Positions 20,674 through 37,762 of a DNA stretch of 64,000 nt are shown piece by piece (position 1 is the stretch's first letter; each line of letters begins with the position of its first letter). This DNA comes from Puniceicoccaceae bacterium (GTDB taxonomy: Bacteria; Verrucomicrobiota; Verrucomicrobiia; Opitutales; Coraliomargaritaceae), in assembly GCA_902587165.1 (NCBI GenBank), contig CACIKF010000001.1, positions 310,001 through 374,000 on the forward strand, read 5' to 3'. The translations under genes were made by a program, and so were the position numbers. The notes under the pieces were generated by a model. The model ran no database searches, was not told the origin of the DNA, and was given only the letters and a program-made list of their open reading frames with translations.

Positions 20674-20816
20674 CGAGCATTAAAAAGTGCACGGAGTGAT
20701 CGGCGAGCCCTCAGCAAAGGTCTCGAAACTCTTCGCATGTTGTAACAATTGTGTGACGAAAGGCTCTCTTTGCTTGGCTTATCGCAAAATACAGACAAAA
20801 CCCATCAACACCTAAC

Positions 20817-21962
20817 ATGGCAGAATTTTTTATGATTATCGCCTTTGCGATGGCAGCTTATGCTATCGTGGCTAACGACTCGATACAGAGCCTCGGGACT
20901 TTTCTCGCGTCGAATGCCAAACGCCCATGGTGGGTTCTCTGGATTTGGATTTCCGGGATTATGGTCGTGACTGTTTCTTGGGGGTGGTTTGCCAACGGAG
21001 GGGATCCGGCTTTCGGTCGCCTGTCCGCTGCGGGTAAAAATATACCACACCCTCATGATATCGGGGGCATGATCACTTGGCTCTTTTTACTGCCGCCACT
21101 ATGCCTCGTCATATTGACCCGTATGGGCATCCCCGTTAGCACATCTCTACTCGTCCTCACAGGGTTCAAAGGCCTCGTTGCCGCACAACAGGGTAAAACT
21201 CCAGGTGCCGCGGTCGATCTCTTTAAATCCATGATGGAGAAGTCGCTCGTTGGCTATGCCATCGCATTTCTGCTAGGACTCATCTTGTTTTTTGTGGTCA
21301 TCTACCTAATAGAGAGAAAGGTCAAGGCTGACCAGGAAGACGCCAGCAGTGCCAAGGCTTTGCACCCCAAGTGGTTAGTCTTTCAGTGGCTTTCGACTGG
21401 GTTTCTATGGTCGATGTGGCTGGTTCAGGACCTCGCAAATATTTTTGTATATCTACCCCGCGAGCTTTCCTGGTGGGGCTTGGCACTCTCGCTCGGAGGC
21501 ATGGCCTTACTGCAAGGTTACCTATTTAAAGAAAAGGGCGGAAAGATTCAGCGTGTTGTTACAAGTAAGACCAATACGCTAGATGTTCGCTCCGCCACCT
21601 TTATCGATCTACTCTATGGATTAGTACTGCTCTTTTTTAAGGTCGATTATATTCCCAAGCTGTTTACAGCGATGGGGATGGACGTCCCTTGGCCGGAGAA
21701 AATGCCCATGAGCACAACCTGGGTTTTCCTCGGTCTGCTGGCCGGACGGGAAGTCGGCATCGCGCTTCGGCTTCGCCACCGCAGCAAGAAGAAAGTGTCT
21801 AAGCTCATCTTCAAAGATGCCGGTAAAGCCTTCTTCGGTTCGGCCATCGCGGTCGTCTTGGCACTCTTCCTGCCACTCCTCATAAAGCCAGTCAACGAGG
21901 CGATTCACGAGAAACCGGCGCAAGCAGAAGCGACACAAGCCACCGCTCCTCAAGCACCCTAG
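20817..21962 (+). CDS. Multipass membrane protein, divergent PiT-family-like transporter
   Basis: A 381-residue polytopic protein with about eight hydrophobic segments. The first helix carries VANDSIQSLGTFLASN, close to the GxNDxANxxGT signature of inorganic phosphate transporters (PiT). GIPVSTSLLVLTG at about 104-116 matches the PiT PVSTT motif, and a second half-repeat at about 202-216 has VQDLANIFVYLPREL. The ND and DxAN landmarks in two halves support a distant PiT relation, but the glycine before ND is replaced and the rest is not typical. The tail after about 355 is Ala/Gln/Thr/Pro-rich. The substrate is not certain. It stands alone, 143 bases after ftsK. Confidence 0.6.
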   Translation: MAEFFMIIAFAMAAYAIVANDSIQSLGTFLASNAKRPWWVLWIWISGIMVVTVSWGWFANGGDPAFGRLSAAGKNIPHPHDIGGMITWLFLLPPLCLVILTRMGIPVSTSLLVLTGFKGLVAAQQGKTPGAAVDLFKSMMEKSLVGYAIAFLLGLILFFVVIYLIERKVKADQEDASSAKALHPKWLVFQWLSTGFLWSMWLVQDLANIFVYLPRELSWWGLALSLGGMALLQGYLFKEKGGKIQRVVTSKTNTLDVRSATFIDLLYGLVLLFFKVDYIPKLFTAMGMDVPWPEKMPMSTTWVFLGLLAGREVGIALRLRHRSKKKVSKLIFKDAGKAFFGSAIAVVLALFLPLLIKPVNEAIHEKPAQAEATQATAPQAP

Positions 21963-22550
21963 TCTAAAAACCGAGCTTACGCTGCGTAAGGGTCGCTGTA
22001 AATTGGACGTAAAAACTCAAATGTGTCATTATTGTTACACGCCCGATCGAAGAAATTAGGGCACTTACAAATCAGCCTGAATATATCGCGAATACATATT
22101 TGACATATGATAACCCTGATCGGAGTTTTCGAGTCTTATTGACTGTATATCATATCAGCGAAGTCCTGTAAGGGGTCTCTTTTGCCGACTCATACGATGT
22201 TTACGATAAGGCTTACACATCTCTGGATTTGACGGCATCGAAAACGATCTAAGAGAATTTAAAAGTAAGCTTTTCGTTTAAGAACATAACAGATTCATAA
22301 AGAGGTATTAACTACGATGTCGAGGGCGACGAGGTAGGCCGAGCGCTTAGCTCTCATTGCGTAGTTTTCTTTTTCCAGCCTGAAGTGCCATGTGCGCCCT
22401 AGGCTTTTTGTCGCAAAGTTTCGTTTTGGTTGCATTTATGTTACTTAAATGTAACAAAAGTTACAGTCCTGTGATATTCATAAAAGAGGCGAAATTTGCT
22501 GTTGAGCATCTGGGGAGCATAATCAAAAGCGATGAATCTAGTGTTTTCTT
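21963..22550. other. A/T-rich gene-free stretch upstream of the receptor locus
   Basis: 588 bases in which no frame on either strand has protein-like composition. A frame at 22390-22653 is rejected. The stretch contains TTGACA-like and TTGACT-like hexamers near 22110-22145 without good -10 partners, and an inverted repeat at 22439-22465. It probably carries the promoter and control sites of the receptor locus. Confidence 0.5.
22439..22465 (+). promoter_or_regulatory. Operator-like inverted repeat upstream of the receptor locus
   Basis: TGTTAC and GTAACA form a perfect 6-base inverted repeat around TTAAAT (22439-22456). A third half-site, GTTACA, follows at 22460-22465. The site lies about 90 bases before the first gene of the receptor locus. 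It would suit a dimeric regulator, but none is encoded nearby. Confidence 0.3.
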
Positions 22551-23219
22551 ATGCTCTTCAAATCTACTCAACTATGTCCACTATTCGTGGCATTCTTTAT
22601 CGTCTCTACCCTGTGGGGAGTCGAATCGAGTATGCATACGCCGCGTTCGGTAGCATCAGGTGCTAATAATTTTGAACTTAGGGGTATGCTATCCTTTGAT
22701 GGGGAGTATTCATTATCCCTTCACGATTGCCAGAGGCATTCATCTGCTTGGGTTGCTGTCGGAGGCTATGCTTTTGGGGGGTATTTACAGTCGTTCGACC
22801 CAGAATCGCTAACAGCAGTTTTTTCATTTGATGGGTCTGAGCATAAAATTCAGATGCGGCACGAAGATGCCGCAATTCTGTATGCTAAGGTTGAAGATTT
22901 GCCAGCGCTTGCACTCAAGCATTGGCGTGAAAAAGCAGAAGCAAAACATGAGTCTGCTGCACTTGTCTTGTCACGTTATCAGTCGTTTCAGAGAGCCGTT
23001 TTAAGGCGGCGAACCACTGGATCTGGTGTCGCTTCGAGCGGTCAAAGTTCTTCTAGTTCCTCAGGCGGGAAAGACGCAGTATCGGATGCCTCAGAAACCC
23101 GTATCGCGAGAGCGAATCAAGAATCAGAGAGACCACTGCGAGTGAACACCTTACCGCTGGTAAACTCTTCTCTGACCTTAACAGAGAAAACTGAAAGGAA
23201 GCGCTTTGGGACCTTTTAG
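22551..23219 (+). CDS. Secreted protein of unknown function
   Basis: Not recognised. The 222-residue protein has a signal peptide (about 1-25). A beta-rich domain at about 42-105 follows (NFELRGMLSFDGEYSLSLHD, SAWVAVGGYAFGGYLQSFD, LTAVFSFDG), with a W-x3-G-x-x-F-x-G-Y pattern seen in small secreted proteins of PVC bacteria. A helical stretch at about 113-150 and a long Ser/Arg-rich low-complexity tail complete the chain. Its end overlaps the next gene by 14 bases. The two precede a TonB-dependent receptor on the same strand, so a role at the cell envelope in the same process is inferred. Confidence 0.65.
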   Translation: MLFKSTQLCPLFVAFFIVSTLWGVESSMHTPRSVASGANNFELRGMLSFDGEYSLSLHDCQRHSSAWVAVGGYAFGGYLQSFDPESLTAVFSFDGSEHKIQMRHEDAAILYAKVEDLPALALKHWREKAEAKHESAALVLSRYQSFQRAVLRRRTTGSGVASSGQSSSSSSGGKDAVSDASETRIARANQESERPLRVNTLPLVNSSLTLTEKTERKRFGTF

Positions 23220-24018
23220 ACCAAAAATCCGGAAGGCTTCATTGAGCGTTTACACAGTATTCGCAGTATTTTTCCTAGCTACACTTTCAAGTGTGCAAAC
23301 AGCCTATGGTGGATCGAACCTAGAGGAGGCGTCTGAACTCTGGCCACAAAAAGTCGCAACCAGAACGCCGTTGATAGGCAAGCTTCATGGCAATACCTTA
23401 GGACGCGGCTCCGAGGGTGTATTTCTACGAATTGAATCTGGCGAAGTTATGGTCGATTTTGGACATAACGGCATATTCAAACTGCCCGTTAAGGACACCG
23501 ATTTTTTGGACAGAGTGCGGCAAGCTATTGGCGTACGCACGTTTGAGTCGCAAGGACTCTTTACCTTTCGATATGCCAGCTCATTTTTTTGGCCGGAGAC
23601 ATCAACGAGCTGTCGAATTCCAGAGCTAGAATCTTTCGATTTCTTCGTCGTCATTTATTTCGATTATGATGAAGCTTCAGAGGAGATGCATTTGGTCAAA
23701 GAACTCTCAAAGGAGTTTAGCACTTTGATGGCTGATGACCTTAAAACCTCACTCATCCTAATGCCTGTTCGCGGAATTAGTAACGCGGTTGATATGAGGC
23801 TGTACTACTTGGATGGATTTCATGCGCCGACGATTAGCCCATACATGAAGAAGGGTACCGTTCACACTCTTCAGCACGATTTTGAGAACAAGGGAGACCT
23901 AGTGGTCATCGATAAGAACGGCCATATCCTCACGCAGAACTTCCTATCCAAATTAAAAACTCCGGAGGCGAGTTATGAGCTAATACACGATTCTGTGGCA
24001 CAGCGCCGAACGGGGTAA
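23206..24018 (+). CDS. Secreted protein with possible thioredoxin-like fold, unknown function
   Basis: The 270-residue protein begins at a TTG (23206) within the end of the preceding gene. GAAAGGAAG lies just upstream as a likely ribosome site, so coupling is probable. The signal segment is at about 14-35. Residues 145-245 (FDFFVVIYFDYDEASEEMHLVKEL, SLILMPVRGISNAVDMR, GDLVVIDKNGHILT) follow the pattern of a thioredoxin-like domain: strand, helix, strand, and a DKNGHI turn. The CxxC redox pair is absent, and only one cysteine (about residue 132) remains. The receptor gene begins 14 bases after its stop. Function is unknown; the fold call is an inference from pattern only. Confidence 0.6.
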   Translation: MGPFRPKIRKASLSVYTVFAVFFLATLSSVQTAYGGSNLEEASELWPQKVATRTPLIGKLHGNTLGRGSEGVFLRIESGEVMVDFGHNGIFKLPVKDTDFLDRVRQAIGVRTFESQGLFTFRYASSFFWPETSTSCRIPELESFDFFVVIYFDYDEASEEMHLVKELSKEFSTLMADDLKTSLILMPVRGISNAVDMRLYYLDGFHAPTISPYMKKGTVHTLQHDFENKGDLVVIDKNGHILTQNFLSKLKTPEASYELIHDSVAQRRTG

Positions 24019-24032
24019 CACGATTTTCTACC

Positions 24033-27000
24033 ATGCAAGACAAAACGACACGCATTCTTAGAAGCCGCTACTGGCCACTATTAGCAATCTCACTAAGCGC
24101 GCCTTTTCTGAGTATTAAAGCTAAAGATACGGTCAAAGGCGGCGGTTTTAGTTTCACCTTGCCGGAAGAGGCGCCTAAAGCAGAAGAGCCCTTAGATGGC
24201 TTAAGCTATGGTGAACTTCCCGATCAGGCACCTGCGATGGAGGATGCTACCGAAGGCCAAGAAGCGGTGCCAGGCGTAGTTGCTGAGACCACGGATACAG
24301 TGGCTGAGAGCGAAACGGCAGAGCCCACAAGAGCCTTCGACCCTGAGACTACAGGTTCTGTGATCGGGCAAATATTAGATAAAAACAATGGATTGTTTGT
24401 AGAGGGTGTTTATGTCGTTCTTGAACCGGAACCAGCCGAGAGCACTGAAGTGTTAGAGGAGGGTGAAACGCAGACTTTTTTTGGACGAACAGATGAAAAA
24501 GGGGCATACCTTATAGAAGGAGTTGACCCTGGTGTATACACGATGTCTTTGGTTAAGCGTGGTTACTACGAGGCGACTGTCGAGGGAGTGACTATAGAGG
24601 TTCAAGCGCTTGGCCGTTTTGATTTGGGCCTTGTGCCAAGAGACGAAATGTCGGACGACGTTTATGAGCTCAATGACTTCGTGGTGACTGCGGATGATGT
24701 CCTCGCTGGTCGAGCCGAGCTTATCGAAATTCGTGCGGCTTCAGTGGGGCAAGTCGATTTCCTGTCGAGTGAGGATTTCGCGAAGTTTGGTGGTTCGAAT
24801 ATCGCTGATTTAGTGAGCCGACTAGCGGGTGTTAATGTGGTTGAAGGTCAGTTTGCGGTGGTTCGTGGTCTTGGGGATCGTTACAACAGTACCCTTCTAA
24901 ATGACCTCCCTGTGCCTAGCCCAGATCCAATACGCCAGGGTGTGCAGCTAGACCTTTTTCCGACTTCCATTATTGAGAGTGTCGTTGCGGATAAGGCCTT
25001 CTTGCCAGGATTACCATCCAACTCATCTGGTGCAGCGTTTAACCTGATAACTCGCTCATACCCTGAGGATTTCACTGCGTGGCTTGAAACTGGTTTCAGC
25101 GTTAACGAAAACGCGAAAGAGACTCTTTTGGTGAACCCAAATGCTGAGCCCGCTCTAGGTTCACCAGGAGGTAGCCACTTTGATGTGAGGTCAATACTGG
25201 GGACCCGAGATGATAGCCTGAGGGATAGCTCCAAGGCGGCCTCTTCCACGAATGTGGGAAGTGATTTTTTTGATTTTGGAGGACAGAGTTTCAAATTTGG
25301 CTTAGGCGATTCCCATGAAGACCCATTCGGAGGAATCGTATCTAGAATCGGTTACGTAGGGTCTATCAGTTATAGTAGCAGTTCCGAAACAGCAATTGGT
25401 TCGCAGCGCGACCAATACGCCCTAGTAAATACCAGATCGCGTATCATTCGCTTACCAGGGCGTCCTCCAATCATTGTGCCGGGAACATCCGGTACACTTC
25501 TCACAGGAGATCTACCTGTAAGCGGGCTTGAGTATGATCTTGTTAACGGTAAGGTTAAAGAAACAACAGGCTTCCTTTTTGGGACTGGAGTTGAGCTAGA
25601 TGATGATGGCGATCATAAACTGAATTTCACTTTTTTGCGTTCTCAGTCGATTATTTCTGAGGCAGTCCGCCGTGATAACGGAGTGCTTCCAGATGGAATC
25701 AGCGGGCAGTCGAACGATAGAGGTTTCGGCTCTACTGGCAACAATCAGCTTAACTTGGCGGCTGATATTGTTGGGCGAGGAGGCTTTGACGCGTTCAGTC
25801 AAGGGCAGGATATTTTGACACTAGAGACCCGTACTCTAAACGCGCGTCAGGTGTCCGGAGAACATAAGTTTACAGTTTTGGGCAAAGACGCTGAGTTCTC
25901 TTGGGGTTTGACGGAATCTGATGCAAGTTCTGAAATCGGCAATCCCAGCGGAAATGGATTTGTCGCCGGACAGTCGACACTGCTCTACATGCAGAATGTT
26001 TCTGGTGAAACTCTATTGGCAGGACCTTCCGGACAATTGACAGAAGCGGATTTGACGGAAGATATCGAGCCAGGCGCGATTCTATTTGGGGGTTCTACCG
26101 CGACCGCAGAAGGCTATGCTGAGGACGTAATCCGGAATACAGCGCGCTCCATTGACGACGAAATGTTGGGCAAGCGAATCGATGGTTCGGTAGATCTCTT
26201 CGATTTTGTAACCGCCAAGGGTGGTTTCTTTATGTCAGAAACGACACGAGTTGCTCAGCAGACCGACGAACTACTCGTTCTGCCTTCCGGTGATATCGTC
26301 AGTAATTCTGATGGTCTTAATGCCTTCGCAGTAGAAGCCAATGACGTTGCAAACGTAATTCCACTCATTTCGTCTGCCGACGTGGCGCGAGATATCGAAG
26401 ACTACTACTTTCAGTTCGATGTCGACCCTATCGAGAATCTTGAGGTTAGCCTAGGTGCACGGCAATCTTCAGTTAACTTGACTGCATCTGGCAGTGGGCA
26501 GCTATTCCCTGCAATTGGCCTTTTTGGCGCGCCTAGCTTTTTGGATTCTGGAATCGCGGGTAATCAGGACATTACTAATGGTGAGCTAATCGGTTATACC
26601 GAACCTGGTGAAGGTAACATCGATGAAGAATATCTTCTGCCTGCTGTTTCAATCAAATATTCTTTTTGGGATAATTGGACCTTCCGTGCTTCCTACGGTA
26701 AGACCATCGCACTCCCATCATCAAGAGAGTTATCGCCTATCTTTACTTTGGACACCTTTTCGGGTGATCGCGTCTTCGGAAATCCTAATTTGGAAGTCTC
26801 CGAGGTTAAAAACGCTAGCTTCCGCTTGGAGCGCACCTTCAGTGATGGTGTTACCAGTGTAGCGGTCAGTTTTTTCGATAAGAAGATTGAGAATCCTATC
26901 GAACAGATCGGGTTAGTCGATGTGTCAACGGGCACTCCAGTTCAGTCTTTCTTTAACAATGAGAATGAAGCCAGCGTCCAAGGCTTCGAGATTGAAGGTA

Positions 27001-27557
27001 GGCTCGGGCTCGGCTTGGCAGCTACCAAGTTTGATGATTGGTTCAATGTCGAAATTGGATTTCTCGATTACTTTTCGATCGGCGGCAATATTGCTCTCAT
27101 TGATGCGAGTGTGGGATTCCCAGGGCCCGTCGCCACAACCTATTTTAACGAGAACAATAACTCTGGACCTTACACAAATGCTAACGGCGTGACGGAAATA
27201 CCCGAAGATCGCCGACTGTTCGACCAGCCTGAGTATACTGTCAATGCAGACGTTACATTCGAGCATCCGGACTGGGGAACGCGCGTTACGCTTTCACTCT
27301 ATGAGCAGAGCGATGTGCTGACCAGTGTAGGCAGTGGGTCAAACTTAACAGCGGACCAATATACGCTACCTTATGAGCAGTTTGACCTCACATTTGCTCA
27401 AGAGTTTGGAGACGGGTGGGAGTTTGAATTTCAGGTCGAGAACATAACAGACACAGAGCGCGGAATAGAATATGATTCGGAGCAGGTTGACGCTCCACCG
27501 CGCATCAGTTACAAACAAGGCCGCACCTACAGTGTCGCACTAAAATATATTTTTTAA
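24033..27557 (+). CDS. TonB-dependent outer-membrane receptor with carboxypeptidase-regulatory-like N-terminal domain
   Basis: A 1174-residue active-transport porin. A signal-like hydrophobic stretch lies at about 15-30, followed by an acidic Glu/Pro/Ala-rich segment (about 40-108). A carboxypeptidase-D-regulatory-like beta domain comes next (about 108-205: GSVIGQILDKNNG, GRTDEKGAYLIEGVDPGVYT). The plug is at about 225-335 (SNIADLVSRLAGVNVVEGQ, VVRGLGDRYNSTLLNDLPVPS, SNSSGAAFNLITRSYPED). A large beta-barrel closes the protein, ending in the aromatic signature YSVALKYIF. The substrate cannot be told from sequence. It is followed after 98 bases by a beta-helix secreted protein, a pairing also known in Bacteroidota. 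The TonB motor operon lies 5 kb downstream on the other strand. Confidence 0.92.
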   Translation: MQDKTTRILRSRYWPLLAISLSAPFLSIKAKDTVKGGGFSFTLPEEAPKAEEPLDGLSYGELPDQAPAMEDATEGQEAVPGVVAETTDTVAESETAEPTRAFDPETTGSVIGQILDKNNGLFVEGVYVVLEPEPAESTEVLEEGETQTFFGRTDEKGAYLIEGVDPGVYTMSLVKRGYYEATVEGVTIEVQALGRFDLGLVPRDEMSDDVYELNDFVVTADDVLAGRAELIEIRAASVGQVDFLSSEDFAKFGGSNIADLVSRLAGVNVVEGQFAVVRGLGDRYNSTLLNDLPVPSPDPIRQGVQLDLFPTSIIESVVADKAFLPGLPSNSSGAAFNLITRSYPEDFTAWLETGFSVNENAKETLLVNPNAEPALGSPGGSHFDVRSILGTRDDSLRDSSKAASSTNVGSDFFDFGGQSFKFGLGDSHEDPFGGIVSRIGYVGSISYSSSSETAIGSQRDQYALVNTRSRIIRLPGRPPIIVPGTSGTLLTGDLPVSGLEYDLVNGKVKETTGFLFGTGVELDDDGDHKLNFTFLRSQSIISEAVRRDNGVLPDGISGQSNDRGFGSTGNNQLNLAADIVGRGGFDAFSQGQDILTLETRTLNARQVSGEHKFTVLGKDAEFSWGLTESDASSEIGNPSGNGFVAGQSTLLYMQNVSGETLLAGPSGQLTEADLTEDIEPGAILFGGSTATAEGYAEDVIRNTARSIDDEMLGKRIDGSVDLFDFVTAKGGFFMSETTRVAQQTDELLVLPSGDIVSNSDGLNAFAVEANDVANVIPLISSADVARDIEDYYFQFDVDPIENLEVSLGARQSSVNLTASGSGQLFPAIGLFGAPSFLDSGIAGNQDITNGELIGYTEPGEGNIDEEYLLPAVSIKYSFWDNWTFRASYGKTIALPSSRELSPIFTLDTFSGDRVFGNPNLEVSEVKNASFRLERTFSDGVTSVAVSFFDKKIENPIEQIGLVDVSTGTPVQSFFNNENEASVQGFEIEGRLGLGLAATKFDDWFNVEIGFLDYFSIGGNIALIDASVGFPGPVATTYFNENNNSGPYTNANGVTEIPEDRRLFDQPEYTVNADVTFEHPDWGTRVTLSLYEQSDVLTSVGSGSNLTADQYTLPYEQFDLTFAQEFGDGWEFEFQVENITDTERGIEYDSEQVDAPPRISYKQGRTYSVALKYIF

Positions 27558-27655
27558 TGTCACGTAATTGAAACATTAAGGCGTTCTAATTGTCACCTTG
27601 AGGCTCTACTATGACCTAGCCTTTAGGGCTAAACTTAACTCAAATCATAATATCC

Positions 27656-29713
27656 ATGAAAAAATCATTACTACTCGCCTCTGGACTAGCAGCTGCCTCA
27701 GCTTCTTTTGCTCAGGTATCACTGACTAATTCGTTAGCACAAATCGAAGGTTCCAACACAGGCATCCTTAACATAACCCAAGATCTTGATCTCGGCTCGC
27801 TTTCCGGCAATGTGTTTATTCTCGAAACTACCACGATCGTTAATCCTGGCGTGACACTCACTATTCCAGCAGGATCTATCATACGTAGTCAACCTGCTAC
27901 TGGCTTTTCGTTTGTTCAAGATACAGACTCTAGTGGTAATCTTCAGTATTATGAGACAGATGCAGCTGGCGCTAGAGTTGAAGATGCTGATGGTGATGAT
28001 GTCGTAACTACATCTGCTGCGACAAATGGCACGGACAACGATCCAAAGGGTTCGCAAGTAGCAAGCAATATTCCAGGTACTCTTCTCGTAAGTCGCGGTG
28101 GTGCGATTGACGCTGTTGGTACCGCAACTAGCCCGATTATCTTCACAACTGCAGCCAATACTGATCGTGACCGTTACGCAAGTGGTGACACTTTCCTAGA
28201 TGCGGATCCCGTCGGCAGTCCACTTACTCCTCTCAGTGTTATAACTGGAGATGATCCAGACACCACTGCGGTCGAAACTAGCTACACAGAAGCTAATGTT
28301 GGTCTATGGGGTGCGGTGACTCTTCTTGGTTACGCACCAACTAATCGCGGCACGAGTGACACGGGTGTAGCAGGCGAAGCATACATCGAAGGCTTCGGAA
28401 TGACCACTGAACAAGTTACCTATGGAGGTAGTCTTCCAAATGACAGCTCGGGCAAAATTAAGTATGTCTCGATCCGTCACTCAGGAAAAACAATCGTTGA
28501 AGGTGACGAGCAACAAGGCCTTACCTTAGGTGGAGTTGGTGCAGGCACATTGATTGAGAACATCGACATCTACTGCTCCGCGGACGATGGCATCGAAATC
28601 TTCGGTGGCACTGCGAGCCTTCGCAATGTCATGATCAGCTACGTTAACGATGATGGCTTTGACCTCGACCAAGGCTGGACAGGTAACGCCCAGTTTCTAT
28701 TCATCCTAGCGAGCAACATCACTGACCCAACTGGTCTTGTTACATTCGATGAGTGTGGCGAGTGGGATGGCCAAGATGGCGTCGACGAAGAAACATCAGA
28801 TATAACTACTGCTATCGCAACTCTGGACACTGCGCTCGCTAGCGGCACTGCAGCTGAGCAGACTGCCGCACTTGCCGCTCTGAATGCTCTCACTGAGTCC
28901 GACGACCTGACCGCGACCGGTCAGCCATTCATGGCTCCAACCATTTACAACATGACTGTATTTGCAGATGGTGCTTCTGGCTCCTTGGAAATTGATGCAG
29001 CTTTCGGTGGTGCTATCTATAACTCCATCTTGACTGGACTCTCTGCCTCAAGCTTCGACATTGAAGACGAAACTTCAGCTAATCCAATCTCCAATGGCTT
29101 CCCATCCGCTAGCCCGGCTGCACGTCTTCTTGCTGGCTCCTTGAACATCAACGGTGTCACTTTCATCGGTAACACCGCTGTAGCTCAAGTCGGCACAGCT
29201 CAAGTCGGCACAGCTCAAGTCGGTGAACCAGGTGACGAAGATTATGCTGAAGCATCCTCTGATTATGTTGCCGCATCCTCTGATTATGCTGCCGCAATTC
29301 CCGCAGTCACTTCTGCTACGGTCAAAGAGACTACTTTTGCTCAAGGTGTTATTGAAAACGATACTAGTATAGCGCTCAATTCGACTACGAATGAGTTCCT
29401 TAATGGTAACCCATTTGCCTTCGGAGTATTTGCTCCGATTAATGCAAGTGCTACCTCATTAGCCGAACTTGTATACAATGACCAGACTGTAGCGAATGGT
29501 GTGAACCCTGTGCCGTTTAATGCTGGCGCGAGTAGTACTCCAGATGCAGGTAACTTGACAAACACTGTTCCAGTTGCAGGCGCATTCTTCGAAGAAGCAG
29601 CCTACCGCGGAGCTTTTGCGCCTGTTTCTACAGCGCCTCTCTTCACCACAGGTTGGACCGCTCTAAACGTTCGCGGCATCCTGGTTGATACCGCTTCAGG
29701 CAGCCTCCAGTAG
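27656..29713 (+). CDS. Secreted right-handed beta-helix-like protein, receptor partner
   Basis: A 685-residue exported protein with a clear signal peptide (about 1-20, ending SFAQ). It belongs by pattern to a family often annotated only as T9SS-sorted or hypothetical: VNPGVTLTIPAGSIIRSQ, then TLLVSRGGAIDAVGTATSPIIFT, LWGAVTLLGYAP, EQQGLTLGGVGAGTLIENI, SADDGIEIFGGTASLRNV and DDGFDLDQGWTGNAQFLF. These are successive turns of a parallel beta helix. Near residue 510-545 it holds short tandem repeats encoded by 15-base and 21-base DNA repeats. It follows a TonB-dependent receptor, so it may bind or present the receptor's ligand. No catalytic residues are recognised. Confidence 0.75.
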   Translation: MKKSLLLASGLAAASASFAQVSLTNSLAQIEGSNTGILNITQDLDLGSLSGNVFILETTTIVNPGVTLTIPAGSIIRSQPATGFSFVQDTDSSGNLQYYETDAAGARVEDADGDDVVTTSAATNGTDNDPKGSQVASNIPGTLLVSRGGAIDAVGTATSPIIFTTAANTDRDRYASGDTFLDADPVGSPLTPLSVITGDDPDTTAVETSYTEANVGLWGAVTLLGYAPTNRGTSDTGVAGEAYIEGFGMTTEQVTYGGSLPNDSSGKIKYVSIRHSGKTIVEGDEQQGLTLGGVGAGTLIENIDIYCSADDGIEIFGGTASLRNVMISYVNDDGFDLDQGWTGNAQFLFILASNITDPTGLVTFDECGEWDGQDGVDEETSDITTAIATLDTALASGTAAEQTAALAALNALTESDDLTATGQPFMAPTIYNMTVFADGASGSLEIDAAFGGAIYNSILTGLSASSFDIEDETSANPISNGFPSASPAARLLAGSLNINGVTFIGNTAVAQVGTAQVGTAQVGEPGDEDYAEASSDYVAASSDYAAAIPAVTSATVKETTFAQGVIENDTSIALNSTTNEFLNGNPFAFGVFAPINASATSLAELVYNDQTVANGVNPVPFNAGASSTPDAGNLTNTVPVAGAFFEEAAYRGAFAPVSTAPLFTTGWTALNVRGILVDTASGSLQ
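29183..29224 (+). repeat. 15-bp tandem repeat inside the beta-helix gene
   Basis: The unit GCTCAAGTCGGCACA occurs twice without change (29183-29197, 29198-29212) and a third time in part (29213-29224). It encodes AQVGT repeats and keeps the frame, so copy-number change would lengthen or shorten the protein without breaking it. Confidence 0.9.
29252..29293 (+). repeat. 21-bp tandem repeat inside the beta-helix gene
   Basis: Two copies of a 21-base unit beginning GCATCCTCTGATTATG (29252-29272 and 29273-29293) differ at one base. A diverged half copy (GAAGATTATGCTGAA) precedes them. The unit encodes ASSDY[VA]A. It is in frame and lies 27 bases after the 15-bp array. Confidence 0.88.
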
Positions 29714-29731
29714 TAAAACAATTGAACGCTC

Positions 29732-29763
29732 GGCCGGGAGCAATTTTCTTATTGCTCCCGGCC
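29732..29763 (+). terminator. Perfect 12-bp hairpin between beta-helix and PEP-CTERM genes
   Basis: GGCCGGGAGCAA (29732-29743) pairs exactly with TTGCTCCCGGCC (29752-29763) over an 8-base loop. It lies 18 bases after the beta-helix stop. No strong T-run follows, so it may be a leaky terminator or a 3'-end stabiliser that lets the upstream and downstream genes be expressed at different levels. Confidence 0.65.
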
Positions 29764-29790
29764 CACCTTTAATCTATAACTCAATTCATT

Positions 29791-30519
29791 ATGAAAAAGA
29801 TACTATTAATACCATCACTCATCGTAGTCAGCGGTGCAGTGTCATACGGTCAATCACTACTGGCTGGATTTGATTTCACTAATGTTTCTGGCACTACTGC
29901 GTCAGCTACATTTAGTGATCTCGCTGCTGCGGATACTGCCGCTCAAGCAGGTCCTTTCGGTAGCTTTTCGACTACCTTGGCATCACCAAATTCGGTGGAG
30001 TATAGCACTAACCTAACCGCTAATAAAACGATTACGTTTGATGACAATCGAAATGTACTAAATAACACCCTCGGTGACGGCAGCTCATTTTCGTTTGCTA
30101 GCACTGGTGGTTTCATCGGCACAAGCGCAAATGGAACTTCGTTTACATTTGAAGTCGATACAGGTGGGGCTAATTATGAGAACTTCATCTTCTCCTTTGC
30201 AGGTTCCGGCTTGAATGGGACAGACACAGGTTCGATCGCCTTTGAGTTCAGCACAGATGGCACAAGCTTTACATCTATCAGCACGGAATCTCTTTCCGGT
30301 GCTGCTTCAGCAGGTGGTTCTGCTTATACACTAGCCACCCAAGAAGTATCTGCGAGTAACGTGTTCTACCGAGGAACCTTTAGCGGCTTGGATGCCAATG
30401 AAGCCTTGGTCTTGGACAATGTGCAAATCGGTGCTACTGCTGTTCCTGAGCCAAGCACTTTCGCCGCTATTTTCGGTTTTGCTGCGCTAGCATTTGTTGT
30501 AGCACGTCGTCGTAAATAG
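29791..30519 (+). CDS. PEP-CTERM sorting-domain protein
   Basis: A 242-residue secreted protein with a signal peptide (about 1-20, ending SYGQ). The body is Ser/Thr/Gly-rich and beta-structured (LLAGFDFTNVSGTTASATF, NYENFIFSFAGSGLNGTD). At the C-terminus lies a PEP-CTERM signal: VPEPSTFAA, a hydrophobic helix, then ARRRK. It is predicted to be exported by Sec and processed by an exosortase at the envelope. The body resembles the 'LAGFDF ... F..S.DG..F' adhesin-like proteins common in Verrucomicrobia, whose role is unknown. It follows the beta-helix gene with a hairpin in between and is closed by a strong terminator. No exosortase gene is in the window. Confidence 0.85.
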   Translation: MKKILLIPSLIVVSGAVSYGQSLLAGFDFTNVSGTTASATFSDLAAADTAAQAGPFGSFSTTLASPNSVEYSTNLTANKTITFDDNRNVLNNTLGDGSSFSFASTGGFIGTSANGTSFTFEVDTGGANYENFIFSFAGSGLNGTDTGSIAFEFSTDGTSFTSISTESLSGAASAGGSAYTLATQEVSASNVFYRGTFSGLDANEALVLDNVQIGATAVPEPSTFAAIFGFAALAFVVARRRK

Positions 30520-30542
30520 AACGGTTACATTTGCTTCTTCCC

Positions 30543-30577
30543 AGAAGGCTGAGTTTAATAGCTCAGCCTTCTTTTTT
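30543..30577 (+). terminator. Strong intrinsic terminator of the receptor locus
   Basis: AGAAGGCTGAG (30543-30553) and CTCAGCCTTCT (30562-30572) form a perfect 11-bp stem around an 8-base loop. The last stem T begins a run of six T (30572-30577). It starts 23 bases after the PEP-CTERM stop. Confidence 0.93.
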
Positions 30578-30735: not shown

Positions 30736-31149
30736 GTGCGAAAAAACATTCCATTCATCAGAAAATTCTCGGATTGGCTCGACGGTTCACTAGCGGTATC
30801 GCCACCGAAATCAGTTCGAGCCTTCGTGTTCGGGGTAAACCGCCGAGAGCTTACTTTTTCGGTCGAACTGAACGGCACGAAGGAATTTCACCTTGCGGGC
30901 ACTGCTTGGACCTGGTCGGAGATCTGGGCCCCCGAGGCGGCAAAGCTGACTGTACCTTCAGAAGTTTGTCGTGATCAGGTTTCTGAGTGCACGAGGCAAG
31001 TGCGCATGGCTATCTGGCACTACTTGGACTACGGGACATTTGCCTACCGCCTAGCTAGTGTCGAAGGCATCGCGATCGAGGCCTTTGGGGCAAGGTATGA
31101 GTTGATCTGGACACCGGATCAATCAAAGCAGCAAGATTTGGTTGGTTAG
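30736..31149 (+). CDS. Conserved-looking hypothetical protein
   Basis: Not recognised. The 137-residue cytoplasmic protein begins at GTG 30736, supported by GGAGG at 30723-30727 with 8-base spacing. The sequence is well mixed and Trp-rich (TAWTWSEIWAPEAAKLTVP, MAIWHYLDYGTFAYRLA), with no signal peptide or membrane segment, and looks like a compact alpha/beta domain. A frame that overlaps it (30531-30974) lacks such support. A small Cys-containing protein follows after 24 bases, and the pair may be one unit. Upstream lies the terminator of the receptor locus. Confidence 0.55.
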   Translation: MRKNIPFIRKFSDWLDGSLAVSPPKSVRAFVFGVNRRELTFSVELNGTKEFHLAGTAWTWSEIWAPEAAKLTVPSEVCRDQVSECTRQVRMAIWHYLDYGTFAYRLASVEGIAIEAFGARYELIWTPDQSKQQDLVG

Positions 31150-31173: not shown

Positions 31174-31410
31174 ATGACACAAGCTCGGAGTCGAAGCAAT
31201 AGTCCCGTCTGCGGGGAGAACCTCCGGGTTTCTCGTGCGTCCGTTCTTGTTGTTCACGACGAGGAAACTTATTGCTCCAAGGCTTGTTTCGAACATCAAC
31301 AGTATCTGTCCTTAAAGTCGCGGAGCACAGCTATCGCCCTTTCTCCTCCTGATGGTAGTAAGCGCTACCATAGCTCTGGGCTGATACGATCGAGTCGCAA
31401 TTATTTATGA
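31174..31410 (+). CDS. Small possible zinc-ribbon protein
   Basis: Function unknown. The 78-residue protein has SPVCGEN at about residues 11-17 and TYCSKACFEHQ at about 32-42. The spacing recalls TRASH/MYM-type or half zinc ribbons (CGxx...YCSxxC), but the usual second cysteine next to VCG is missing. The rest is basic and Ser-rich. It is 24 bases after the previous gene on the same strand and ends just before the convergent LolA-like gene. Confidence 0.4.
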   Translation: MTQARSRSNSPVCGENLRVSRASVLVVHDEETYCSKACFEHQQYLSLKSRSTAIALSPPDGSKRYHSSGLIRSSRNYL

Positions 31411-31431: not shown

Positions 31432-32208
31432 TTACAGTCTTGCGCTGGCAGTTGGCATTGCCGCAGAGAAATAATCCTCATAAATACCCACGCCGAACTT
31501 TATCGAGCTTGTGGTCATTACAGAACGACCTGTTTGCTCGTTTTCGATCACATGGACCATCGGTATGAATACTCCATGATCAGAATTGTAATCGTTGAGC
31601 TGAGTGATGGTGCGTCCATTCTCCGGATGGTCATTTTCATAATGCGTGACCAAGTAAGTTTCATCAGAAATATAGAACGTATACTTGTTGAGCGTGCCTA
31701 CAGGGCTAGCTTCAACCGCATAGTAGCGAGTGCCATCGATAGTTTTTGAATTCAATAGCTCAAGCTTAACGCCTTCGCGCCAGAACTTAATTAGACGCGG
31801 CATGACGCCTGCGTCGGCCAGTAGTTGGTCGGCAGCTTCGGGGGGGAGTTCTTCCTTTTGAATTTCTGGGGCACCCGCCAAGCGAGTAGCGGTCCAGGCG
31901 CTCTTGCCGTCATGGGCGCGGATTAGCTGAATCGCCTCATCCTCTTTACCGGGCACTGGTATGGTAACGGTAGCACGTATCTGATCGGGGCGTTTTTTTA
32001 TGATGACGACATCGACAGTTACACCGTCTCGCTCGACGGTTCCGTTGAGTTGTATGCTCTCGATTTGGCTCCAGTTAGTCAGTCCACCCATCGCTTCCAG
32101 GTGATTGCTAAGGATTTCATTCAATCTAGGGTCGCTTGCGGCTGCTGACGCGGAGTGCAGGGCGGAAAGTAAAAGCGAAAGTCCGATTAGCTGGCGAATA
32201 ACTGTCAC
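31432..32208 (-). CDS. LolA-like outer-membrane lipoprotein-sorting family protein
   Basis: A 258-residue exported protein starting at GTG (32208). The signal peptide (about 1-23) ends SASAA. The mature part begins with a helix (NEILSNHLEAMGGLTNWSQIESIQLNGTVERDG), followed by antiparallel strands ending in YFSAAMP. This is the unclosed-barrel pattern of the LolA/LolB-like superfamily, in the subgroup that opens with 'ILxxHLxAxGG'. It lies downstream of the TonB operon on the same strand, separated by 257 bases with its own A/T-rich upstream region. It may carry lipids or lipoproteins through the periplasm; this is inference. Confidence 0.65.
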   Translation of the reverse strand: MTVIRQLIGLSLLLSALHSASAAASDPRLNEILSNHLEAMGGLTNWSQIESIQLNGTVERDGVTVDVVIIKKRPDQIRATVTIPVPGKEDEAIQLIRAHDGKSAWTATRLAGAPEIQKEELPPEAADQLLADAGVMPRLIKFWREGVKLELLNSKTIDGTRYYAVEASPVGTLNKYTFYISDETYLVTHYENDHPENGRTITQLNDYNSDHGVFIPMVHVIENEQTGRSVMTTSSIKFGVGIYEDYFSAAMPTASARL

Positions 32209-32465
32209 ACACTAAATATACCCTAAAAATTAAAATATAGATATGAACGTATCGGTTACGTTGGTGAAAATTCGGTGTCGAGTGACAGATGCGTGAATCA
32301 AGTATTACAGATGCGAGGCAATTGTGTGACATTCTTTTATCGCCAATTCACTCCTCGAGTGAGTGTGTGCTTTCTTCCGAGCATTTTTGAAGCAGCAATC
32401 TTTATACAGACCAAAAAGCTAGAGTTTGATATTTTTATCGAACAGACACATTGAAGCTTCCAGAG

Positions 32466-33821
32466 CTAGCTCTGGCTACGGGCCGCTCTTTCTACGCGGT
32501 CGGTGTAGTCTTCTAAATTCGCATCTGACTCAATCTGTAGGGCGCGGCGTAGTAGGGGTAATGCTTTTTTATACTCGCCATTTCGGACGCGTGCTTGAGC
32601 GTGTGCGACAAGGGCTTCGCGCTCGAAGGCTTCAATCTTCTCAGCTTGCTCGTAGCGGTTGATGGCTTTGGCCATGTCATCTTGATCGGCAAAAAAGTTA
32701 GCTAGCTCGATAATGGCCTCTCCATTGAGTGAGTCACGCTCGACGATCTTGGTCAGCAGCTCCACTGCGGAATCGTCTTCGCCTTCGGCGCGAGCGACTT
32801 TGGCCTCAATTGTGAGTAGTTTCAGATCCGTATCTTCGTCCATTGTATCACCCAGTTTCTCGCGGATACTGGCGATCATTAGTTTGGACTGATCGAAGCT
32901 GCCGGTGCGGGCGAGGAGCTGTGCTGCGCGGACGAGAGGCTTACTGTCCCCAGCGCTAGCCATCTCGGTAGCAGCTTGGTAGGCATCGAGCGCGAGGTCG
33001 GGTAAGGCGTTGTTCATGTAAATATCACCAAGGAGTGTCAACGTGCTCAGCTTGGCTGCGCCCATGCGCCGGACAACTTCTAGGTTTTTGGCTGCGGCGA
33101 TCGATTCGTCTTGGCCCAGATATGCGTTGCTCTGAAGTAGCCAGTAGTCGGTGTTGTTGGGCTCCTCCATAAGGAGTGTGTCGAAGAGTGCGATCGCATC
33201 GGAATAACGTTCAGTTTCAAGAAGGCAACGCGCGAGGCCAACCTTCCAGTCGGTAGTGTCCGGCTGCATAAGGATCGCTTGGCGATAGGCGGCTTCGGCT
33301 GGGTAGTATTTTTGCTGAGTTAAGTAGCCGTATCCAAGAAGTCCATACGAACGACCGTCAACTTCGCCGAGTTCCATGGCTTTGGAAATGGTCTTAATTG
33401 CTTTATCAAAGTCTCCCTTTTGCACCTGAACGAGTCCAAGGTTCTTATAAGCGCGACGGAAGTCTGGGTGCTTCACCACTGCGTTTGAGTAGAATTGCTC
33501 TGCTTTAGCCAAATTGCCTTCTTGAAAGTACAGATTGGCCAAGATGAAGTCGAAGGCAGCACTGCTACTATCAGTTATTTGGGGCTCGAGCTGTTGGATA
33601 GCCGCCACTGGGCTCGCTTTAAGTAGATCGATTAAGCCGCGTAGCGCTTCTTTCTCTCCTTCAGAGATCGGCGGTTCGGCACCAGCAAGGAAACCGTAGC
33701 TACCGAGAAACTCTTTTTGGAATGTGGGGTCGCTCCAGAGTTGGCTATCAATTTTTGATTGAGCGATGGATGTGCTCGCAGTGAGACCAAGGGTGATGAG
33801 AAGTGCGATGAGCTTGTTCAT
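32466..33821 (-). CDS. Periplasmic TPR protein of the TonB operon
   Basis: A 451-residue exported protein with a signal peptide (about 1-20, ending SIAQ) and about ten tetratricopeptide repeats from residue 75 to the end ([59 protein letters not shown] and so on). It is the last gene of the DUF3450-TtpC-ExbB-ExbD-TonB-TPR run, 29 bases after tonB. In Vibrio-type TonB2 systems a TPR protein also ends the operon, where it is thought to assist the TonB complex. That context supports a structural or regulatory role in energy transfer. Confidence 0.85.
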
Positions 33822-33850
33822 GTGTGTTATGTATAAAAGATATTACTGGA

Positions 33851-34513
33851 TTATTTGATTGTATAGGGTAGGCGGACTCTAGTGCGCGTCTTGACGGGTC
33901 GACCATTCTGCTCGCCTGGAATAAACCTCCATTTGCGAATCGCCTCGATGGTAGGGCGTTCGAATATTGGGTCGCTTGATGCTGTAATCTTCACTGAGCT
34001 AACTTTGCCATTTTGGTCGATTATGAATTCAGCAGTAGCAAAGCCTTCTTGCCCGCGTCGGCGAGCTGCAGCTGGATATTGAGGCGCTCCTTGGCGTCTC
34101 GGCTCAGGTTTTACTTCAAGGTCATTGATATCAAAAATTTCCAAGCCACCGAGGTCGCTGCTGCCTAGGTCAAAAGTTGGCAATGCAAAGTCGCCCGCCA
34201 TGGAGCCACCTGTGCCAGGGTTGAGTGCCATGTCGAGTTGCTCCAAGGAAATGGGGGGCGGCGGTGTATTGAGCTCCGGAGGGGGCTCTTCCTCTTCAGG
34301 TGGAGGTGGCTCGGGCGGATCTTCGGGTGGAGGAGGTGGGGGCGGCGGCGCGACGTTGATCGTTTCGATTTGCTCTGGGGTTTTATCGAAGTCGTTAAAG
34401 ATTTGAGTCAACGGGATCGCCAAGAAGAGGAGTCCGCTGATAATAATGCCGATGACAGAGCCGGTGACTTTTGTGCGGCCTCTATATTTTGGCGTATTAT
34501 ACGGCTTGGACAT
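33851..34513 (-). CDS. tonB: Energy transducer TonB
   Basis: Couples the proton-driven ExbB/ExbD motor to outer-membrane receptors. The 220-residue protein has an N-terminal membrane anchor (about 17-38) and a long Pro/Glu spacer (about 50-90, runs of P and E). The C-terminal TonB domain has the motifs [30 protein letters not shown] and [17 protein letters not shown]. It sits between the TPR gene and exbD with short gaps. It is the natural partner of the receptor at 24033, although a genome of this kind probably has several receptors. Confidence 0.94.
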
Positions 34514-34535
34514 TTTTGGCGAGATGCGGAAGCAG

Positions 34536-34934
<399 letters not shown>

Positions 34935-34965
34935 GTTAAAATGACTAATTAGTAATGATTGATGA

Positions 34966-35550
34966 CTAATCGAATTGAAGCTTTGTCAGGCTGAGTGATT
35001 CGATCCTAGCGAGTGCGGCTTCGATCGAGTGGATACGATTGCGGATGACTAGCACGAGGAAGATGCCGGGCAGCGCGATGACCAGACCGGTCTGGGTGGT
35101 GATGAGCGCCTCGGAGATCCCAGAGGCCACCACATCGACGGTATCACCGCCGCCTTGACGGGCGATGCCTGAGAAAGTAGCGAGCATGCCGATGACGGTG
35201 CCTAGCAAGCCCATTAGTGGTGCGGCTGCTACCAGTGTATTGAGAAAGATCACTCTGCGCTCCACGTTGTGCAGGATGGACTGGCGCACTTCTTCGAAGC
35301 GGTTGCGGACATGCTTGGATGCGCTTACGTTTTCCTGTGTGTAGCGGATGATTTCGCCAGCGCGGCCCTTGGCGCTTTCAGGGCTATAGACCCATTGAAG
35401 CCATTCGGTATCACGACCCAACTGAATATTACCCTTGCTAAGAAAGATAACTAACTCAATGCCGTTGGTATAAATCAAGAGCGCTAATAGGGCCAGCGGA
35501 TACATGACCCATCCGCCGCTATCTAAAATACTGATGATTTCTTCTACCAT
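34966..35550 (-). CDS. exbB: MotA/TolQ/ExbB proton channel protein
   Basis: A 194-residue protein with three membrane segments. The conserved TolQ/ExbB signature is [24 protein letters not shown], followed by a third helix ([22 protein letters not shown]). Short ExbB without extra domains. It follows the longer ExbB-like gene by 18 bases on the minus strand and precedes exbD, so it is the second of two ExbB-type proteins in the operon. Confidence 0.93.
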
Positions 35551-35568
35551 TGTCTGCTTTCGCGAGGA

Positions 35569-36975
35569 TTAAACGCCATCCTTATTACGGGCACCGACCA
35601 CGCCGTTGATAAAGCCGACAGCGATTTGCTCGAGGTCGCCGAGTTTTTGGCGAGCCATACGCGAGAGGAGTCCGTGGATGATGAGCGACGGGATCGCTAC
35701 GATCAGACCAAGCTCGGTGGTGACCAGTGCCTGAGAGATACCCGAGGCAAGGTTGCTGGCGTCACCTGTGCCAAAGACGGTGATCAGCTTAAAGGTATTG
35801 ATCATGCCGGTGACGGTTCCGAGTAGTCCAAGGAGTGGTGCGGCGGCGGCGGTGAGTGCCATGAAAGGTAGGAAGCGCTCCAACTTGGGACGAACGGCAA
35901 GGATCTTTTCGTATAGAATTTCTTCGAGCGTGCCGCGCTTCTCGTCGATATTCTCGATGCCCTTGCTTAGGATGTCGCCACCTGCGCCACTGATATCGCT
36001 CGCGACGGAGAGAGCCTTGGCCTTATCGCCTGCCTCGATCTGCTGCAGCACTTTCTGAACCTCTTCTGCGGATGGCGTCTTGAAGCCAACAACCTCATTC
36101 AATTTGAAGACTGCTAGTAGCATACAAAGTAAGCCGAGGCCGATAATGACATATCCGACGACGCCACCTTGAGCGATATGCTCAGCGACCGTGTCCTTAC
36201 TTTCTTCAATCTTAAGAGCCTTTCCGAGGGTCGGATCGATGGGGATGCTACCTTCGCCCTGACTAATGAACTCGCGGATGCCAGCAGAGTAGTCCTCGCC
36301 GGGAATCGCGATGGCGGCCTCGGCTGCATTGAGCTTGGTGAAAGTGATACCGGCTAAGTCAGATTCACCAGAGGCAAAGTAAACAGTTGGGCCGAAGGCG
36401 GCGTAGGTGCCTTCTTCAATATCACCGTTCGGGGCGAGAGCTTTGCCCTTAAAAGTGTAACCGCCAGCAAGTTGCTCAAGTCGGTCCAGAGCAACTCCAA
36501 TGACATCGATCTGTTTACTAAAACGTTCTGCTTGAGTCAGGTTAGGGTCATCGATTGCGAGGCGGGCTTCTTCGGCGGCCTCGGAGTAGAGTTGCACCTC
36601 GCTGTAGTCGATACGTGTTTCGAAGGAGCGGACAAATTCGTCCAATAGACCAGCTGCATATTCGTTTTGTGCGTCGATCGCTTTAACTTGTTCGCGCAGG
36701 CGATTCAGCCCTAGGTCGCTGTTGTCTCGCAGACGGCGCAGGCGATTGAGCTCATCCGACTTCTGGCGCACATCGTCTTCCAGCGCGGAGACTTCTCGAA
36801 TCAGAGGAATCTTCTCCGCGGCTATTGTGCCCCGTGTTTCGGAGAGCTCTGTCAGTGCGGATTTGAGATCGCGTTCGGCTTGTTCGCTTGCCGAGTTTAA
36901 AGTCTGTGCTTGGGCGAATGTCGCGAGTCCGAGCAGTGCGGCAGTGCCGAGTAGGGTTTTAATTGTGCGTTGCAT
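35569..36975 (-). CDS. Long MotA/TolQ/ExbB protein with periplasmic coiled-coil (TtpC-like)
   Basis: A 468-residue protein. It has a signal peptide (about 1-23, ending TFAQAQ), then a Glu/Leu/Arg-rich helical region (about 28-130) and a further extracytoplasmic part up to about 265. The C-terminal half is an ExbB/TolQ module ([55 protein letters not shown]). This layout matches TtpC of Vibrio TonB2 systems, where the extra ExbB-like protein is needed for TonB2-dependent iron uptake. It lies between the DUF3450 gene and exbB, as in those systems. Confidence 0.9.
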
Positions 36976-37000
36976 GATCAGTGAAGGCTTAGGCGCTCAG

Positions 37001-37762
37001 TTATTTAATATATGCGGGGACGTTAACGAAGCTGATGTCTTCGGAGCCTTCGTAGACGTCGATGAGTTGTTTGATTTCTGCACCGGCAGCGTCCACGCGG
37101 GGCCACTCCCAGCCGTCAGGGCCAGGAACGCCGATGCCAGCGTATTGGCCGGAAGCATCCACATAGTAGGCCATTGCGAGGCCCCAGTAGAGGGTGCGAA
37201 CTTCGACGGTCTTGCCACCCTCGATCTTACGGGACTCGTTGGTCTGTGTGATGGTGGTGTTAAACTTGTCGGCTTGGCTGAGAATACCGACGATGTTTTG
37301 CACACGCTCACCTAATGAAAGGTCTGTGTCGGTCGGGTCTTCCGGCAGGCGGCGGATCAGTGGCTTGATTTTTTCGATCAGGGGCTCCGGTAGCTTCTTG
37401 AGCGCACGCTTCAATTGGCTTTCAAGCGCGCCGATGTTGGCTTCAACCACGGCAGAAGCGGCGGTTAACTTTTCCTTCTCGTCGGCAAGTGTGCTACGCT
37501 CTTCGTCGGCTGCGGTGGCTGAGGACTCTAGATCCGTGAGCGCTTCACTGAGCCGATGGAGCTCGCTGCTGAGCAGCTGCACTGTGTCGCCGAGAATGGA
37601 CTCCTCGACCTTCCAACTGGCTTTTTCCTCCGAGATGATCTGGCGGGTTTCCACCCACTGGTCTAATACCTCACGGGTTTCTACGACTTGATTTTGGGCG
37701 TTTAGGCCAACAATAATTAGCGAGCAGCCGATTGTTAGGAGTGAACAAAGTTGTTTTTTCAT
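37001..37762 (-). CDS. DUF3450 family protein, first gene of the TonB operon
   Basis: A 253-residue exported protein with a signal peptide (about 1-22). A long coiled-coil follows (about 25-135, SWKVEESILGDTVQLLSSEL through SQLKRALKKLP). The C-terminal part, SLGERVQNIVGILSQADKFN and VEVRTLYWGLAMAYYVDASG, is diagnostic of DUF3450. DUF3450 proteins open TtpC/ExbB/ExbD/TonB/TPR operons in gammaproteobacteria and here too. They are presumed periplasmic partners of TtpC, with unknown mechanism. The operon promoter should lie in 37763-37900. Confidence 0.85.
   Translation of the reverse strand: MKKQLCSLLTIGCSLIIVGLNAQNQVVETREVLDQWVETRQIISEEKASWKVEESILGDTVQLLSSELHRLSEALTDLESSATAADEERSTLADEKEKLTAASAVVEANIGALESQLKRALKKLPEPLIEKIKPLIRRLPEDPTDTDLSLGERVQNIVGILSQADKFNTTITQTNESRKIEGGKTVEVRTLYWGLAMAYYVDASGQYAGIGVPGPDGWEWPRVDAAGAEIKQLIDVYEGSEDISFVNVPAYIK

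Follow-up and report, generated by a model that had tools for sequence, protein, structure and literature searches.

A five-gene surface unit and a convergent TonB2-type operon in a Puniceicoccaceae bacterium, probable parts of a phosphate-starvation acquisition system

What does a set of five genes for exported proteins, with no enzyme among them, take up, and do its members belong together? The question is raised by a locus in a Puniceicoccaceae bacterium (assembly GCA_902587165.1, contig CACIKF010000001.1, positions 310,001 to 374,000), a stretch of 64,000 nucleotides that we call the window and in whose coordinates all positions are given. An initial annotation of this DNA had delimited the locus at 22439-30577 and described it as a surface capture and uptake system, leaving its substrate open. 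We consider it likely that these genes make up the outer-surface half of a system for acquisition under phosphate starvation (Pho), with a convergent TonB2-type operon, beyond those limits, as its energiser. The description as a single capture and uptake unit without enzymes holds, but the substrate class is very probably phosphorus, judging from porin O/P, PstS, PhoBR and Pho-box-like sites. The five open reading frames (ORFs), all on the + strand between 22551 and 30519, and the signals around them are:

22439-22455, + strand: Pho-box-like direct repeat TGTTACTTAAATGTAAC, about 95 bases before the P222 gene
22551-23219, + strand: P222, 222 aa; N-terminal hydrophobic segment, GspC/PilP-type HR domain, helical and low-complexity tail
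23206-24018, + strand: P270, 270 aa; small N-terminal strand-rich domain and a thioredoxin/peroxiredoxin-like domain without CXXC
24033-27557, + strand: TonB-dependent receptor, 1174 aa; carboxypeptidase-regulatory-like N-domain
27656-29713, + strand: ElpS/FI-like exoprotein, 685 aa; Sec signal, no lipobox
29791-30519, + strand: PEP-CTERM protein, 242 aa; PF07589 24.6 bits against a cut-off of 20.7
30543-30572, + strand: intrinsic terminator of the unit; 13-pair stem, then T-run

The P222 and P270 ORFs share 14 bases and the terminator is the strongest of the region, in agreement with the annotated run of five genes in one direction ending in a strong terminator. The receptor with a regulatory-like N-domain and the PEP-CTERM protein were also recovered by profile matches: Plug and TonB_dep_Rec scored above cut-off and CarboxypepD_reg slightly below its own, while the PEP-CTERM motif is accompanied by two exosortases encoded in the genome, as expected for exosortase cargo. 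An exosortase would anchor or release this protein. Export signals of the five proteins were assessed by eye. No Pfam or NCBIfam family matched the 222-, 270- and 685-aa proteins, and a scan of every member of their alignments against Pfam found none. Searches of solved-structure sequences with the exoprotein, P270, the receptor and three family profiles gave nothing meaningful, and the beta-helix fold annotated for the exoprotein was confirmed by no profile or structure. Neither SusD nor carbohydrate-active enzymes (CAZymes) are encoded within 20.8-37.8 kb, so that the locus is, as annotated, not a standard polysaccharide utilisation locus.

A probable link to phosphate starvation

The exoprotein belongs to a family, joined by alignment, with at least 576 relatives in a profile scan of named genomes; none of the members tested, from a family of hundreds, matched a Pfam or NCBIfam family. 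We analysed the best 80 exoprotein loci, from Verrucomicrobia, Bacteroidota, Sphingomonas, Alteromonas and others, and in 73 of them a receptor of the same cluster lies beside the exoprotein. This bears out the annotated receptor linkage of the 685-aa protein and is the adjacent TonB-dependent receptor (TBDR) typical of ElpS and FI. ElpS (CC_0170) of Caulobacter crescentus is made under phosphate starvation, which strongly induces it; its gene adjoins the TBDR CC_0171 and genes of the type II secretion system (T2SS), on which its release depends (PMC2996285). The Caulobacter PhoB regulon includes the T2SS and several TBDRs (PMC11208175). In Flavobacterium johnsoniae, phosphate starvation strongly induces FI, FI-FIII are reported as relatives of ElpS and phoBR adjoins FII (PMC8115612).

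Two Sphingomonas loci (L166 and L180) reproduce the published ElpS arrangement, in which T2SS genes come after those of exoprotein and TBDR; both loci have GspD, and L166 also GspC. The L180 protein, so arranged, matches the window exoprotein at 2e-32. The window locus resembles that of Caulobacter in its exoprotein-receptor pairing, its probable connection to phosphate starvation and its link to a GspC-type protein. However, the N-terminus of the window exoprotein, MKKSLLLASGLAAASASFAQVSL, contains no cysteine and thus no lipobox, and it is therefore called a relative of ElpS and not an ElpS. As such a relative it appears, with the L180 match in support, to belong with the ElpS and FI phosphate-starvation proteins. 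Where Caulobacter has the T2SS operon, the window locus has one HR paralog together with genes for a thioredoxin-fold and a PEP-CTERM protein, as well as the TonB2-type operon. The F. johnsoniae loci PUSIII/PUSIV (FI/FII/FIII, with the TonB-dependent transporter Fjoh_3857) likewise place the exoprotein beside a transporter induced by low phosphate, but theirs are lipoproteins, and the sections of that paper used here mention neither an HR nor a PEP-CTERM protein, nor a TonB2 operon of their own (PMC8115612). At the cell surface, the window exoprotein would capture, or help to process, a phosphorus-containing compound. Its residues 507-548 form a repetitive QVGTA/ASSDY insertion that is not present in relatives. 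On contig C4 of this genome, a 2770-aa open frame contains a segment with 64% identity to it, which suggests that the repeat was exchanged within the genome.

Two further features lie upstream of the unit:

20741-20757, + strand: Pho-box-like repeat TGTAACAATTGTGTGAC, upstream of the 381-aa gene; pattern TGTNAYN5TGTNAY
20817-21962, + strand: 381-aa membrane protein, in the slot where relatives carry a phosphate-selective porin

In four loci of the same family (L105, L107, L110 and L114) the gene upstream of the receptor is Porin_O_P, and when all copies are counted, of which a genome has only one or two, a porin O/P is encoded no more than about 10 kb from the receptor in 7 of the 12 same-family genomes that have the module. 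PstS is found beside the receptor in L120 (above the NCBIfam cut-off), L106, G028 and G001, and a Pst-type permease in L107. Among the best 80 loci, counted without a random-locus control, 19 have a PhoB-like regulator and 17 a PhoR-like kinase, with clusters of Pst components, PHO4, Na/Pi cotransporter, porin O/P and polyphosphate kinase (Ppk) in 4-7 loci each. An identity of the 381-aa protein itself as a PiT/PHO4 transporter was not supported (PF01384 13.5 bits against a cut-off of 33.7, E=0.034; hhalign probability 0.2%).

The possible operator annotated at 22439 is present and is best read as a Pho-box-like direct repeat, TGTTAC-N5-TGTAAC, with TGTNAY half-sites spaced by 11 bp. The Escherichia coli Pho box, TGTCAT-N5-TGTCAC, has the same layout. 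The strict repeat is found twice in the window, at 20741 and 22439 (0.19 expected; at least two in 1 of 100 shuffles), and a locus of the same genus (L117) has the same site as that at 20741-20757. Upstream of receptor/exoprotein pairs, a period-11 TGTNA repeat is present in 23 of 65 cases against 35 of 673 regions that precede other genes in these loci (Fisher p 1e-11); the other TGTNA periods give 0-7 (periods 7-10 and 12-21) or 10 (period 22). At low phosphate, a PhoB-like regulator would bind the 11-bp repeat at 22439 and turn on the unit. Elsewhere, a strict TGTNAC-N5-TGTNAC precedes the gene of a 975-aa secreted protein, behind which come genes for TPR, ExbB-like and further envelope proteins (L238 2246-5173; G000 contig 3, near 182610).

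The unit might instead serve the surface uptake of another substrate, such as a glycan, a siderophore or B12, its relatives merely lying near Pho genes. TIGR01782-type receptors often import carbohydrates, and the locus contains no phosphorus enzyme. Besides, FI was modelled as polygalacturonase-like (PMC8115612), and those TonB2 operons that have been studied in Vibrio act in iron uptake (PMC6957404). We nevertheless regard this alternative as rather unlikely, since the unit is devoid of CAZyme, SusD or Fur-linked genes, porin O/P, PstS and PhoBR recur beside it in several phyla, and the 11-bp repeat is enriched upstream of the receptor/exoprotein pairs.

The convergent TonB2-type operon

The assignment to phosphate-starvation acquisition includes an operon on the - strand (31432-37762), convergent with the five-gene unit, which the initial annotation missed; its five genes are real, but its limits were too narrow. 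From first gene to last the operon contains:

37001-37762, - strand: DUF3450 protein in the TtpB position; PF11932 3.6e-34
35569-36975, - strand: TtpC-like MotA/TolQ/ExbB protein with an N-terminal extension; PF01618 3.3e-28, residues 334-449
34966-35550, - strand: ExbB; PF01618 6.5e-24
34536-34934, - strand: ExbD; PF02472 3e-26
33851-34513, - strand: TonB; TonB_C 2.9e-20, C-terminal domain 33851-34130 a replaced allele
32466-33821, - strand: TPR protein, placed like TtpD in the TonB2 operon of V. vulnificus (PMC6957404)
31432-32208, - strand: LolA-like protein, last gene of the operon; PF17131 27.4 bits, slightly below the cut-off of 30

The six genes from 37762 to 32466, DUF3450/TtpB first and TPR/TtpD last, have the order and domains of the TonB2 operon of Vibrio vulnificus, ttpB-ttpC-exbB-exbD-tonB-ttpD (PMC6957404). 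The Vibrio system is Fur-regulated and serves siderophores (PMC6957404), whereas the window operon has the extra LolA-like gene and adjoins a Pho-type receptor unit. Between that unit and the LolA-like gene, the segment 30577-31430 has no match in the loci compared; within it lie a 137-aa ORF (30736-31149) that matches no family and, near 31174, a short frame with a cysteine.

The five proteins were searched singly in about 84-91 relatives, and 20 regions, selected by the presence of the exoprotein, were mapped; some proteins were counted by position, their similarity being too low for single-sequence search, and were joined by family alignment. Receptor and exoprotein occur together in all 20; about 15 regions also have a PEP-CTERM protein, 14 have P270 and 13 have P222. 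The P222, P270 and PEP-CTERM genes do co-occur with the receptor family in relatives, and the lack of co-occurrence that would have spoken against the annotated grouping was therefore not found. In a locus of another family (L100), all twelve genes, the first being DUF3450 and the last PEP-CTERM, share one direction, and L102 has the same collinear run as far as its contig stretch covers; in both, P222 and P270 lie between TtpD and the receptor. In L117, P222 closes the energiser operon and P270 the receptor operon. In Alteromonas (L194), a single stretch holds PhoR, PhoB, PstS, exoprotein, receptor, DUF3450, MotA, ExbB, ExbD, TonB and TPR. The energiser operon belongs with the five-gene locus, and the receptor would import the captured compound powered by TtpB-TtpC-ExbB-ExbD-TonB-TtpD, as the domains and gene order suggest. 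In L101 1-11018 (G061, 2.26 Mb), a second receptor locus carries a tandem pair of exoprotein genes together with a PEP-CTERM gene, downstream of a TonB gene.

The five genes were replaced as a set

We used as reference the near-identical genome G006, of the same genus. The flanking proteins are highly conserved at the amino acid level (FtsK 98.9%, 381-aa protein 97.4%, ExbD 100%, ExbB 99.5%, MotA 98.7%, DUF3450 98.8%, LolA 90%, TPR 91%; TonB 72%), while those of the unit are not (P222 25%, receptor 29%, PEP-CTERM 32%, exoprotein 34%), and no counterpart of P270 was found in this comparison. The DNA alignment ends at 22343 and starts again at 31469. At its upstream edge there is a relic:

22013-22343, + strand: pseudogene relic of the ancestral TonB-dependent receptor (3' end); matches G006 receptor residues 987-1096 at about 72% aa identity

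It is in one frame with three in-frame stops, and 22040-22343 aligns at 85% DNA identity within the 3'-terminal part of the receptor gene of G006. The flanks being near-identical, the five genes at 34% or less and the receptor relic still in place, these alignments show that the set was exchanged as a unit in this lineage. The closest relatives of the window receptor and exoprotein, 40 and 47% identical, are in G061, from another family. The low GC content at third codon positions (GC3) of the module was discarded as a sign of recent transfer, as the different module of G006 is equally low.

Such block exchange is natural evidence that the five genes work as a unit, and their proteins are, we infer, interdependent. 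Their order and orientation do vary in relatives, as with P222 at the end of the energiser operon in L117, which would be expected if they were chance neighbours regulated independently. This is very improbable, being already contradicted by co-occurrence, with all 8 non-self matches of P270 lying near receptor and exoprotein genes, and by the joint exchange between near-identical flanks.

TonB was affected apart from the unit: compared with G006 its N-part is 98% identical and its C-part (33851-34130) only 34%. Two types of C-domain circulate among relatives, independently of receptor type, and we therefore record a separate exchange. Co-adaptation of the swapped C-domain with the swapped receptor was not supported: G017 pairs a window-type C-domain with a G006-type receptor.

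P222, P270 and the wider reading

The two overlapping proteins had been annotated as unknown; the overlap and the absence of a family stand, but their folds can now be seen in predicted models. For P222, AlphaFold run on 15 sequences predicted with confidence a core of six strands (residues 38-105, pLDDT about 95), while the tails were modelled poorly, and residues 36-105 correspond to a predicted GspC/PilP-type HR domain. Foldseek ranked first the GspC HR domain of a GspC-GspD complex, with PilP and PulC also near, and the ten best VIA-align rows were all GspC, PilP or GspB (Z 8.3-5.6; GspC HR 8.3, PilP 7), later rows aligning with the long helix only. This helix (119-157) was modelled at moderate confidence, and no PDZ domain was found in P222. 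In profile searches, a P222-type HR protein had at least one copy in each of ten genomes and a further copy in several locus-bearing genomes; a copy directly follows the secretin gene in at least six. In this genome, the HR paralog ends a T2SS operon with T2SSG, T2SSK, a weak T2SSM and Secretin. In a tree with long branches, locus-borne and T2SS-linked proteins form separate groups (95/92, 96% of bootstrap trees), and the motif [N/S]PFLPPG is common to many members of both. As P222 sits in the Pho-type locus and its paralog in the T2SS operon, P222 can be said to work like, but not to be, a GspC-type T2SS protein. P270 (pLDDT 80.5) has a C-terminal half with a predicted thioredoxin/peroxiredoxin-like fold (Foldseek E 1e-4 to peroxiredoxins) and a single cysteine in the whole protein, which precludes CXXC chemistry.

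We tentatively propose, at somewhat less than even chances, that P222 is a locus-dedicated GspC-type secretion adaptor, to which paralogy and predicted fold point, with P270 as its putative redox-dead thioredoxin-fold partner. Such an adaptor would let the resident T2SS export the exoprotein and perhaps the PEP-CTERM protein. There is something of a precedent in Pseudomonas aeruginosa, where the orphan GspC/GspD subunits XphA/XqhA form a hybrid T2SS: there, too, a second GspC-type protein is encoded apart from the main T2SS operon, although P222 is not accompanied by a second secretin and is encoded beside an uptake receptor and its putative own cargo. About as strong a candidate, close to an even chance, is that P222 and P270 act in the periplasm, in assembly or quality control of the receptor, the exoprotein or the TonB complex, their HR and thioredoxin folds being reused scaffolds; this concerns the role of the two proteins only. 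Their position between TtpD and the receptor in L100 and L102, the absence of CXXC from P270 and the use of HR/PilP-type domains in more than one machine, GspC and PilP both being ranked by Foldseek, are in its favor. However, the closest P222 paralog comes directly after GspD in a T2SS operon in several genomes, and ElpS-type cargo is T2SS-dependent in Caulobacter (PMC2996285). Going further, phosphate starvation could re-target the resident T2SS to the surface proteins of the locus through its own GspC-type adaptor. Receptor, cargo, adaptor and partner would then make up a self-contained cassette, which takes the place of a diverged one en bloc between near-identical genomes; as a whole we think this less likely than not.

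Several observations weigh against the phosphate-acquisition system as we propose it. Phosphatase and phosphodiesterase are absent from the locus, no clear Pho gene lies beside it in this genome (79% complete), and the 381-aa neighbour resembles PiT weakly. The strict repeat is barely commoner genome-wide than in the reversed control (7 against 4), so that single sites elsewhere prove little; the genome-wide search for more Pho boxes gave little above control, the other matches examined being mostly uninformative, and 42 of the 65 receptor/exoprotein pairs are without the relaxed repeat. The window exoprotein is not a lipoprotein, unlike ElpS and FI, the type of TonB C-domain does not track that of the receptor (G017), and P222 has no Pfam family, its HR match being structural only.

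The locus brings together the unexplained but highly expressed ElpS/FI exoproteins, their TonB-dependent receptors and TonB2-type energisers, which are usually treated apart, and in Verrucomicrobia relatives and Alteromonas they form one conserved super-locus. If P222 is indeed a cargo-linked GspC, small mobile adaptors could re-specify type II secretion.

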